This document shows, in pieces, positions 46,279-48,588 of a DNA stretch of 64,000 bases. Positions within the stretch are counted from its first letter, which is position 1, and the number at the start of each line of letters is the position of its first letter. This DNA is from Curtobacterium sp. UNCCL20 (GTDB taxonomy: Bacteria > Actinomycetota > Actinomycetes > Actinomycetales > Microbacteriaceae): contig NZ_FNKG01000003.1 of the NCBI RefSeq assembly GCF_900101675.1, positions 248,001 to 312,000 on the forward strand, read 5' to 3'. Both the position numbers and the translations under genes were made by a program. Under the pieces are notes generated by a model. That model saw only the letters and a list, made by a program, of their open reading frames with translations, was not told the DNA's origin and did not search any database.

Positions 46279-47592
46279 TCAGTACTTCCGGACCCCCAGG
46301 TGATCTCGCAGGTGTGGCCCGGAGTACTCGGTGCGGTGCAGTCCACGCCGCTGCAGCTCCGGCACGACCTGCTGCGTGAAGGCCTCGACCCCGGCGGGGA
46401 AGTGCGTCGGCACCGCGAGGAAGCCGTCGCACGCACCCGCCTCGGACCACTCCTGCATGGTGTCCGCGATCGTCTCGGGGGAGCCGATCATCTTCCGGTA
46501 GCTGCCCTCGGCAAAGTACCGCGCGGTCTCGATGGTCGAGAGCCCTTGGTCGCGTGACACGGCCATGATCGCCTCGCGGTGGGACTTGCCGGCGTTCGAC
46601 TCGGGGAGCTCGGGCACCGGTGCGTCCGGGTCGAACGCGCGGAAGTCGACCCCGCCCGCGAGCGGCTTCAGGTTGCTGAGGGCCAGGTCGTCGGGGATGA
46701 GCGCCATCATCTCGTCGGCGAGCGCACGGGCATCGGCGTCGGTGGCCCCGACGATCGGGGTCATCCCGACCAGGATCTTGACGTGCTCCGGGTCGCGCCC
46801 GAACCGCTCGGCACGCTGCCGGATGTCGTCGCGGAAGGCCCGGCTCGCGTCCGGGTCGGACTGCAGCGTGAACACGACGTCGGCCGTCCGGGCGGCGAGT
46901 TCCCGTCCGGGCTCGGAGGCGCCGGCCTGGAACACGACGGGCCGACCCTGCGGACTCCGCCCCGTCGTCAACGGTCCCCGCACGCGGAAGTGCTCGCCCT
47001 CGTGCTGCAGGAACCGCATCTTCTCGACGTCGAAGTAGGTGCCGGACTCCTTGTCACGGACGATCGCGTCCGGTTCCCAGCCGTCCCAGAGCCCGGTGAC
47101 GACGTCGACGAACTCGCTCGCCCGCTCGTACCGGGCGGCGTGCTGGACGTGTGCGTCGAGGCCGAAGTTCTGCGCCTCGTCCTCGTTGAACGACGTCACG
47201 AGGTTCCACCCGGCGCGGCCGCCGCTGATGTGGTCGAGCGTGGAGAACCGACGCGCGAGGTTGAAGGGGTCGTTGAAGGTCGTGGTCGAGGTCGCCGCGA
47301 GCCCCAGGTGCGTGGTCCGCATCGCCAGCGCCGGCAGGAGCATCGTCGGGTCGAAGTGGATCGAGCGGGGGTTCGCCGCGCCGTACACGTCACCCGCGAG
47401 GATGTCGTTGCTGCGGCGGACGGCCGCCTGGTCCTCGAAGAACAGGGCGTCGAGCTTCGCGGCCTCGGCGAGTTCGGCCGCGCGGACGTAGTGCTCGATC
47501 CCGAGGTCGAGCTCGGGGACGGCATCGGGCAGGCGCCAGGCACCGAGGTGGTAGCCGGGGAACAGGAACAGGGCGAGGTGGATCGGCTTCAC
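46279..47592 (-). CDS. FMN-dependent monooxygenase, NtaA/SnaA/DszA family
   Basis: The 437-residue luciferase-like flavin monooxygenase reads MKPIHLALFLFPGYHLGAWR, ALFFEDQAAVRRSNDIL, HLGLAATSTTTFNDPFNLAR, LDHISGGRAGWNLVTSFNE and VVFQAGASEPGRELAARTAD. It belongs to the NtaA/SnaA/DszA/SoxA group, which uses reduced flavin from a partner reductase to oxidise sulfur or amine compounds; the substrate is not readable. The GTG start has a gagaggaacccc upstream. No flavin reductase is adjacent. Upstream lies a long leader holding a candidate 22-residue peptide. Confidence 0.9.
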   Translation of the reverse strand: MKPIHLALFLFPGYHLGAWRLPDAVPELDLGIEHYVRAAELAEAAKLDALFFEDQAAVRRSNDILAGDVYGAANPRSIHFDPTMLLPALAMRTTHLGLAATSTTTFNDPFNLARRFSTLDHISGGRAGWNLVTSFNEDEAQNFGLDAHVQHAARYERASEFVDVVTGLWDGWEPDAIVRDKESGTYFDVEKMRFLQHEGEHFRVRGPLTTGRSPQGRPVVFQAGASEPGRELAARTADVVFTLQSDPDASRAFRDDIRQRAERFGRDPEHVKILVGMTPIVGATDADARALADEMMALIPDDLALSNLKPLAGGVDFRAFDPDAPVPELPESNAGKSHREAIMAVSRDQGLSTIETARYFAEGSYRKMIGSPETIADTMQEWSEAGACDGFLAVPTHFPAGVEAFTQQVVPELQRRGLHRTEYSGPHLRDHLGVRKY

Positions 47593-47771
47593 GGGGTTCC
47601 TCTCGGAGGGACGGCAGGTGTGCGCGCTGGCCCGGTCCGGACGACGTCGGACGGGAGGCGCGGGGTGCGCGAGCGCGTCGGCGCACGTCCACGACGTGGC
47701 CGGTGCCCGGCGGGGGAGCGGCGGTTGTGCGGCGAACGGTCGCGTCTCGATCGTTCGACGGGGGCGCTCGG

Positions 47772-47840
47772 TCAGTGCCCGTGCGCGATCGCACCACGCG
47801 GCCAGCGGCGGGGCGAGTAGGCCGAGTCGTACGCGGTCAT
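47772..47840 (-). CDS. Candidate 22-residue leader peptide before the monooxygenase
   Basis: On the minus strand an ATG preceded by gggagggaagcg (a strong Shine-Dalgarno sequence) opens 22 codons, starting MTAYDSAYS and ending RGAIAHGH, then TGA. The monooxygenase GTG is 179 nt farther on. A minus-strand -10-like TACCGT at 47902-47897 would give a transcript containing both. Short hairpins at 47665-47686 and 47635-47652 lie between. No similarity is known to me. Confidence 0.4.
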   Translation of the reverse strand: MTAYDSAYSPRRWPRGAIAHGH

Positions 47841-47896
47841 CGCTTCCCTCCCGGTGGGTTCCTGCGTGGTGCCCGGCGTCCACCGGTGTGCCTTCG

Positions 47897-47902
47897 ACGG
47901 TA
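47897..47902 (-). promoter_or_regulatory. Candidate -10 of monooxygenase leader transcript
   Basis: TACCGT on the minus strand, about 57 nt before the leader peptide start. The inverted repeat at 47909-47943 covers the region of the -35 element. Confidence 0.35.
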
Positions 47903-47908
47903 CGGGCG

Positions 47909-47943
47909 GGGTGTTTCGGATGCGTTTCGACCGGGAAACACCC
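47909..47943. promoter_or_regulatory. Inverted repeat, candidate operator between divergent promoters
   Basis: gggtgtttc (47909-47917) and gaaacaccc (47935-47943) are exact inverted copies with a 17-nt spacer. A second gtttcg lies in the spacer and a second gaaacc just outside, giving a set of four GTTTC/GAAAC half-sites. The element lies over the -35 region of the monooxygenase leader promoter and upstream of the deaminase -10. Confidence 0.5.
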
Positions 47944-47960
47944 TCGAAACCAACCGGGGC

Positions 47961-47966
47961 TAGCGT
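47961..47966 (+). promoter_or_regulatory. -10 hexamer of nucleoside deaminase gene (leaderless layout)
   Basis: TAGCGT, then 7 nt, then ATG at 47974. Confidence 0.45.
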
Positions 47967-47973
47967 CCTCGCC

Positions 47974-48588
47974 ATGTCCGGACCAGTCCTCGCCCCGTTC
48001 CCCACCGAGCTCCGTGTCGGCGTGCCCGACTGGCTCCGGGACGAACAGGCCGCCCTGCCCGAAGCCCTGCCGACCCGGGCCGAGCGGTTCGCGCTGGTGA
48101 CCGCCCTGGCCTCCCGGAACGTCGAGGAGGGCACCGGCGGCCCCTTCGCCGCGACCGTCGTCGACGAGGAGACCGGCGAGGTCGTCTCGATCGGCGTGAA
48201 CCTCGTCCTGCACTCGAACGTGTCGTCGATGCACGCCGAGGTGGTCACCCTCGGACTGGCGCACGCACGCACCGGCTCGTGGAACCTCGGCCGCGACGTG
48301 GGCCGCCGCCGAGTCCTCGTCGTGAACGCCCAACCGTGCGTGATGTGCCTCGGCGCGCTGCTGTGGTCAGGGGTGTCCGCCGTGGAGTACGCCGCCGACT
48401 GCGCCACGGTCGAGCGGATCACGGGCTTCGACGAGGGCCCCGTGCCGGAGGACTGGCGGGAGCAGCTCATCGCCCGTGGCATCGCCGTCCACCAGGAGCA
48501 CGGCGTCGGCGCCGAGGCCGCCCTGCACCGCTTCCGGGAGCTCGTCGACGCCGGCACCACCGCGCGGTACAACGGCGACGGCGCCTGA
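47974..48588 (+). CDS. Cytidine/deoxycytidylate deaminase family protein
   Basis: The 204-residue protein has the zinc deaminase motifs HAEVVTLGLAHAR (His and catalytic Glu, about residue 90) and NAQPCVMCLGALLWSG (two Cys ligands, about 119-122), like TadA and guanine deaminases. The N-terminus (VGVPDWLRDEQAALPE) is unlike tRNA-specific TadA, and the C-terminal YRY-like ending is absent, so a metabolic nucleoside or base deaminase is more likely. The ATG start follows a leaderless -10. It shares a regulatory region with the divergent monooxygenase gene. Confidence 0.85.
   Translation: MSGPVLAPFPTELRVGVPDWLRDEQAALPEALPTRAERFALVTALASRNVEEGTGGPFAATVVDEETGEVVSIGVNLVLHSNVSSMHAEVVTLGLAHARTGSWNLGRDVGRRRVLVVNAQPCVMCLGALLWSGVSAVEYAADCATVERITGFDEGPVPEDWREQLIARGIAVHQEHGVGAEAALHRFRELVDAGTTARYNGDGA

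Follow-up and report, generated by a model that had tools for sequence, protein, structure and literature searches.

The locus and its leader peptide

The window, by which is meant the whole 64-kb stretch of Curtobacterium sp. UNCCL20 DNA that was analysed, carries two divergently oriented genes on either side of the feature described here. On the minus strand, positions 46279 to 47592 (GTG start at 47592) encode an LLM flavin monooxygenase that scored 509.9 bits against the NtaA/DmoA-family FMN monooxygenase model TIGR03860, above its cut-off of 279.7, that has YtnJ and MoxC as its nearest relatives in the PDB, and that is a predicted stand-in for xanthine dehydrogenase (XDH). On the plus strand, positions 47974 to 48588 encode a deaminase with the CDA fold, guanine-deaminase-like, the best PDB matches of which were a deaminase group headed by 2g84 and then the guanine deaminases.

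Upstream of the monooxygenase, also on the minus strand, lies a frame of 22 codons (47772 to 47840, from ATG at 47840 to TGA at 47772) encoding the leader peptide MTAYDSAYSPRRWPRGAIAHGH, with the Shine-Dalgarno sequence GGGAGGG, identified by eye, at 47852 to 47846. The peptide ends in the core W-P-R-G-A-I-A-H-G-H-stop (47772 to 47804, minus strand). On its 5' side is a promoter-like box, GAAACACC-N7-TACCGT (47897 to 47917, minus strand; TACCGT at 47902 to 47897), of a type also present in the leaders of relatives, and on its 3' side a C-rich spacer of 179 nt (47593 to 47771, minus strand; C/G ratio 1.62), which could be a Rho loading region, extends from the peptide stop to the monooxygenase and includes the monooxygenase Shine-Dalgarno sequence GAGAGGA (47598 to 47604, minus strand, by eye). 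A sequence-only reading of this DNA had proposed a 22-codon minus-strand frame with a strong Shine-Dalgarno sequence and the ending RGAIAHGH, placed in a leader running from a -10-like TACCGT to the monooxygenase GTG, and all of these elements were located at the positions given above. Its further claim of two small inverted repeats, one of them just before the monooxygenase Shine-Dalgarno sequence, was accurate as to the presence of repeats and approximate as to their position: the spacer contains seven pairs, as a raw count in G+C-rich DNA, of which the best spans 47730 to 47760 (13-nt arms, 85%) and the nearest to the Shine-Dalgarno sequence at 47604 to 47598, a bare GCGCGC palindrome excepted, spans 47635 to 47654. 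Neither a sigma-70-type promoter nor, in the window leader, an intrinsic terminator was found between 47500 and 48100, there were zero matches to Rfam covariance models at gathering score across the 64-kb window, and the leader peptide was unmatched by NCBIfam and by Pfam.

A second box, GAAACCAACCGGGGCTAGCGT, was identified by eye before the divergent deaminase (47946 to 47966, plus strand), such that two opposed GAAACACC boxes lie within 47897 to 47966, in the region that separates the monooxygenase gene from the deaminase gene, an arrangement that hints at a shared regulator or an alternative sigma factor. The string GAAACACC occurs twice in the window, both times here, and at least two occurrences were seen in 9 of 100 shuffles.

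Conservation of the peptide

Five other genomes of Curtobacterium have the peptide at the same place, with E values from 1.9e-10 to 2.3e-4 and 0.035 for the next best match. The search covered 60 genus genomes, G487 to G492 not among them, and had six positives in all, with E values between 1e-11 and 2.3e-4. These six comprise the five genomes with an intact ortholog of the LLM monooxygenase together with G006; seven weaker matches within the genus were fetched, and the motif was present in none of the seven. An LLM ortholog at 91% identity or more was present in five of 66 genus genomes, every one of which carries the peptide, and G046 has a homolog of only 46% identity. Within the 33 nt of motif and stop, six sites vary across the six LLM leaders, and every one of them is a third codon position at which the change is synonymous. 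Outside the genus, among 398 family genomes, LLM orthologs at 74-84% identity were found in three genomes of other genera, with different neighbouring genes, and the peptides before them end in WNRGAIAHGA-stop, WNRGAIAHGHR-stop and WAPGQIAHGN-stop. A narrow DNA pattern for RGAIAHGH-stop (at most one mismatch) matched three of the 398 family genomes, all of them Curtobacterium, and thus missed these three leaders, indicating that the sequence drifts far around its core. The sequence-only reading had named a lack of conservation in relatives as evidence that would count against it, and the search for such a lack returned a conserved peptide. Its suggestion of the NtaA/DszA family as a search clue served for close LLM orthologs and was too wide beyond them, as the two examined homologs of 45-46% identity (L042 and L046) each follow another gene immediately and lack the peptide.

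The core W-x-x-G-x-[IVL]-A-H-G recurs in 58 accepted loci in Curtobacterium, other Microbacteriaceae, Streptomyces, Nocardiopsis, Frankia and Corynebacterium (6 + 3 before LLM genes, 17 before Curtobacterium XDH, 13 + 6 before Streptomycetaceae XDH, one in Nocardiopsis, nine in the Frankia family, one in Corynebacterium and two in genome G1289). These loci reduce to 55 distinct sequences, obtained through a script that itself demanded W, G, A, H and G, so that invariance in 55 of 55 is fixed by the search pattern; the residues were therefore recounted on the 36 loci that had been reached through the downstream gene or through protein similarity (nine LLM, ten Streptomycetaceae XDH and 17 Curtobacterium XDH). 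In this pattern-free set W, G, A, H and G were present in 36 of 36, and the residue before A-H-G was I (30), V (5) or L (1). Wobble positions vary under these fixed residues, with three and four codons used at the two Gly positions and four at Ala; the His codon is CAC in all 36. The Arg codon after the motif is CGA in all 17 Curtobacterium XDH leaders (L135, L153-L167 and L169), in which other wobble sites vary.

The remainder of the peptide is far less constrained. The part before the core shrinks to M-A, tails are variable and reach 36-64 residues in some members, and the shortest form reads M-A-W-N-R-G-M-I-A-H-G-R followed by a variable tail. A stop codon follows one codon past HG in 39 of the 55 distinct sequences and two codons past it in one, a share biased by several searches having demanded the stop, and in the other 15 the frame continues for 36-64 codons. 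The frames that hold the motif are short and have either a Shine-Dalgarno sequence or an ATG near the promoter box.

The motif precedes three unrelated types of enzyme

Three unrelated types of enzyme are encoded downstream of the motif: the LLM flavin monooxygenase, XDH and Rieske oxygenases. A pattern scan of genome contigs returned 15 stretches, comprising three from Curtobacterium; six from Streptomyces and one from Nocardiopsis, with the peptide before xdhA (e.g. MSTPSGPGRLTECTAWAPGQIAHGC followed by the stop); one from Frankia, with the peptide before a Rieske oxygenase gene that is followed by a deaminase of the window type; one from Corynebacterium sputi, with the motif between a 5-hydroxyisourate hydrolase-like gene (by eye) and a Rieske gene; and three (L057, L059 and L060) that were judged to be chance. 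In the Streptomycetaceae, an XdhA homolog was present in ten of 91 genomes and the peptide lay 257-317 nt upstream in all ten, of which three were known earlier from the peptide profile and seven were not. The form in this family is W-x-x-G-R-[IVL]-A-H-G, followed by C (9) or R (1) and then the stop. In many but not all Streptomyces leaders a possible GTGCC/GGCAC hairpin is visible a short way past the stop of the peptide; it was not counted, since some of the ranges examined for it ran into the peptide or into xdhA. A conserved block around CACAGAAAGCTGCCTGAAATTGGCGAAC lies approximately 50-90 nt before xdhA in Streptomycetaceae leaders such as L095, L097, L100 and L116.

A search of Actinomycetes genomes for the motif with its stop matched 18 of 374, against 0 of 374 for the reversed pattern, and the genes behind the matches, assigned by reading, were LLM in one case, Rieske in nine (one of them broken) and XDH in eight. 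At L113 (genome G1064) the peptide and the deaminase are preserved with no intact Rieske frame seen between them. Within an order-level sample, genome G1289 carries two copies of the motif, which precede xdhA and a Rieske gene respectively. Matches to the loose pattern used on this sample mean nothing by themselves, since its reversed control gave eight matches in 79 genomes; L172 and L174 were accepted despite it on the basis of short frames and gene context, and L170, L171 and L175 were judged to be chance and left out. At L172, in G1289, a gene resembling an FAD-dependent urate hydroxylase (by eye) is divergent from the peptide-xdhA unit. A peptide profile matched 53 of 396 phylum genomes at E <=0.05, from which 20 loci were read and four genomes accepted (the window's genome, G659, G818 and G835), with L065 and L070 judged to be chance; a motif scan of all fetched loci added none, and the profile may miss members, its first pass having scored at most 21 candidates per genome.

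Within Curtobacterium, the sequence WNRGMIAHG-R was found in all 17 genomes with XDH, ending 50-52 nt before the xdh start, and the peptide frame continues through that start. A second XdhA-like stretch in G051, which contains an internal stop, has no motif in its upstream region (L168). The promoter box was also compared across 22 leaders, taking in 13 of the 17 Curtobacterium XDH leaders: G[AT]AACA-N9-TANNNT was present at constant spacing in 13 of 13 XDH leaders and seven of nine LLM leaders, as raw counts for the whole box. The two LLM leaders in which it was missing are L044 and L009, the dead copy in G006, which reads GAGACACC. Through the shared peptide and promoter box, the XDH and LLM leaders thus resemble each other though their enzymes are unrelated. 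In four leaders (L154, L158, L160 and L163) the peptide ATG lies 7 nt past the TANNNT box, which suggests leaderless mRNAs.

Association with purine oxidation

The distribution of these enzymes was compared with that of uricase in 31 Curtobacterium genomes, a set made up of all six that have the LLM gene or what is left of it, plus 25 others selected mainly because they were complete. Uricase was present in 22 of the 31 and XdhA (E <=1e-10) in 17, every one of them uricase-positive; XDH in this genus was assigned from homology to parts of XdhA, at 38-49% identity. The uricase-positive genomes without XDH (G000, G002, G003, G033 and G037) are exactly those with an intact LLM gene, such that LLM presence matches the uricase-positive, XDH-negative state in 31 of 31 genomes, and the nine uricase-negative genomes had neither XDH nor LLM at the thresholds used. 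All 22 uricase-positive genomes accordingly carry the motif, before XDH in 17 and before an intact LLM gene in five. The LLM/XDH pattern has naive odds of 1 in 169,911 with genomes treated as independent; as the Curtobacterium genomes are related, its real weight is below this figure, and the exclusion, observed in one genus, may rest on few independent events.

In genome G006 (L009 and L149, compared with L130 and L131) the LLM gene is internally deleted, the leader peptide is kept and XDH is present. The uricase of G006 matches those of the XDH genome G012 and of G000 at 100% (rounded) and 68% identity respectively, which suggests that an XDH-uricase block replaced an older set in this genome.

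Around uricase in the window's genome, a fusion of OHCU decarboxylase with HIU hydrolase and a PbuX xanthine permease lie side by side. Among the 31 genus genomes the deaminase is present in the six peptide genomes and G028; it is also found in G484 and G184 and is absent from G190, and its relatives adjoin the peptide-Rieske unit in Frankia too. Three Rieske proteins were compared with the PDB. For the two from the Frankia family the closest entry is the methylxanthine demethylase NdmA; for the one from C. sputi it is SxtT of the saxitoxin pathway, with NdmA behind, which counts against the purine reading. A Rieske system of Klebsiella, HpxDE, has been linked to hypoxanthine/xanthine oxidation (available text of PMC7373994). 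The enzymes behind the motif probably all oxidise purines. The reading frame first noticed in the window is real and belongs to a larger feature than the sequence-only reading had described, with a link to purines that was absent from that reading.

Proposed mechanism and alternative explanations

The motif is conserved, protein-coding and associated with these genes, and we infer stalling, its ligand, the sign of control, the output step and the activity of the enzymes. Our favoured reading, which we hold to be rather probable, is that the peptide represents an undescribed actinobacterial family of nascent-peptide leaders that would sense oxidised purines in the manner of TnaC or SpeFL and control whichever enzyme makes urate. 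The nascent W-x-x-G-x-[IVL]-A-H-G would arrest the ribosome when an oxidised purine is present, most likely xanthine, with hypoxanthine, guanine or urate as possible ligands. Arrest would allow expression of the downstream gene, as TnaC does for tryptophanase, and that gene would encode the enzyme converting xanthine to urate, namely XDH, a Rieske oxygenase or, in the window, the LLM monooxygenase replacing XDH. An exit-tunnel arrest peptide best fits the variable length and start together with the restriction of fixed sequence to the last ten residues. A stop one codon past HG, the arrangement in 39 of the 55 sequences, is that of TnaC-type termination arrest. Since the frame reads on in 15 of the sequences, arrest may occur at the HG codons themselves, and as the Curtobacterium XDH motif does not stand at a stop codon, a single mechanism of arrest at termination cannot account for every member. 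The xanthine riboswitches described in the available text of PMC7373994 act as OFF switches, so the sign of peptide control could be opposite to that proposed here.

The output step may differ between members. Where the spacer is long and C-rich, a stalled ribosome could hide a Rho site, as described for TnaC in the available text of PMC8429421. Spacer C/G ratios were 1.42-3.11 in eight LLM leaders, 1.25-1.81 in eight Frankia-family leaders and 1.09-1.42 in eight Streptomycetaceae leaders. Eleven further window leaders, delimited with a crude gene caller, served as controls and gave 0.88-1.30, a range that the Streptomycetaceae values overlap; L096 and L103, with misplaced gene starts, were dropped from this measurement and L113 was not included. 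Spacers range from 54 to 306 nt, and three LLM spacers, at 54-91 nt, are short for Rho. Where the gap is approximately 50 nt, the output could be translational: in the Curtobacterium XDH leaders a ribosome that runs through crosses the xdh start and a stalled one does not, such that stalling could free the start. Start-site sequestration in these leaders was considered and dropped, as it was not above that of shuffled spacers. Accessibility 4-18 nt before the xdh ATG increased from 0.36 to 0.58 without the upstream RNA in 17 of 17 leaders, but when 14 of these leaders were compared with versions carrying shuffled spacers, over the seven bases that start with ATCGGA, the means were 0.33 versus 0.37, with three of 14 leaders at a fraction <=0.08. 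Of the peptide-controlled attenuation originally proposed for the window, the translated controlling leader peptide has strong support from its conservation in several genera and before several types of enzyme. Attenuation as the output step is putative: no terminator was found in the window leader, spacers vary between 54 and 306 nt, and the Curtobacterium XDH frames overrun the start of the next gene.

Among the alternatives, the one that survives best, although we judge it unlikely, is that arrest is constitutive and ligand-free or responds to a non-purine signal, for example flavin, oxygen or a compound that targets the ribosome. All three types of enzyme are oxidoreductases that contain flavin or iron-sulphur centres, and arrest peptides without a small ligand have been described, as for SecM; however, the common denominator of these non-homologous enzymes is the purine pathway, represented by uricase, HIU hydrolase, the deaminase and xanthine permease. 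A classical attenuator that measures charged tRNA under Trp, His or Gly starvation is very unlikely. Its W and H codons would be the invariant ones observed, and purine and histidine metabolism are connected, but G, [IVL], A and G are as fixed as W and H, the core has a single W and a single H with no run of like codons of the trp or his kind, the window leader has no intrinsic terminator, and the regulated genes resemble those of purine oxidation rather than amino-acid genes. Slightly more improbable still is a microprotein with a function of its own, either in trans or as a small partner of an enzyme, for which residue conservation and one reported trans-acting leader peptide (PMC7298713) could be cited, since only about ten residues are conserved between an N-terminal part reducible to M-A and tails of 36-64 variable residues, and the peptide stays beside enzymes that are unrelated to each other. 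Least credible of all is a DNA operator or a structured RNA such as a riboswitch in place of a translated peptide: the stretch is short and regulatory in position, the Curtobacterium XDH and LLM leaders have a promoter box in common and the CAC and CGA codons are uniform, but the changes in the six LLM leaders are exclusively synonymous, the Gly and Ala codons of the pattern-free loci vary under fixed residues, the motif lies in short frames with translation signals, and Rfam models found nothing in the window or at the leaders of eight relatives, with a single tRNA in L043 away from the leader.

Comparison with known systems and implications

The known bacterial arrest peptides that sense metabolites are few, with TnaC and SpeFL as examples in the available text of PMC8429421. 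As described there, TnaC of the tryptophan-sensing E. coli tnaCAB operon resembles the present family in being a short leader peptide before a catabolic gene with a spacer after it, and in having a key Trp and important residues near the stop codon. It differs in its unrelated sequence, in the purine ligand predicted here, in the lack of a stop after the motif in some of our members and in the position of the Trp, which in those of our members that stop one codon past HG lies nine residues ahead of the final one; stalling and Rho involvement, moreover, are here putative. The ornithine-sensing SpeFL resembles our proposal in sensing a small metabolite from within the exit tunnel (same source, PMC8429421), but it has another sequence and host group, and its sensing part is N-terminal, unlike the C-terminal ten residues that alone are conserved here. 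The xanthine riboswitch (NMT1 motif) likewise controls purine oxidation genes, including Rieske-type hpxD-like dioxygenases (available text of PMC7373994), but it is an RNA aptamer and an OFF switch, and the element described here is a peptide without an Rfam match.

In the Curtobacterium XDH leaders, the short spacing and the overlap of the frame with the start of the next gene would be compatible with switching at the level of translation, with attenuation of the ermC type as a precedent; unlike ermC, however, their start regions were not sequestered above shuffled controls. To our knowledge there is no previous example of a purine-sensing arrest peptide. Neither such a peptide nor a leader peptide before xdh appeared among the literature matches listed, which consisted of titles and abstract openings and covered few subscription journals.

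We regard it as an even proposition that a mobile purine-sensing arrest peptide marks the xanthine-oxidising enzyme of each lineage, in which case it would reveal the LLM monooxygenase as a further molybdenum-free route to urate besides XDH and the Rieske oxygenases. With a core as short as that of the M-A-W-N-R-G-M-I-A-H-G-R form, a ligand screen by toeprinting is directly feasible. The motif is usable for finding further enzymes of this kind, and the LLM monooxygenase and the Rieske proteins of unassigned substrate become testable candidate xanthine oxidisers.
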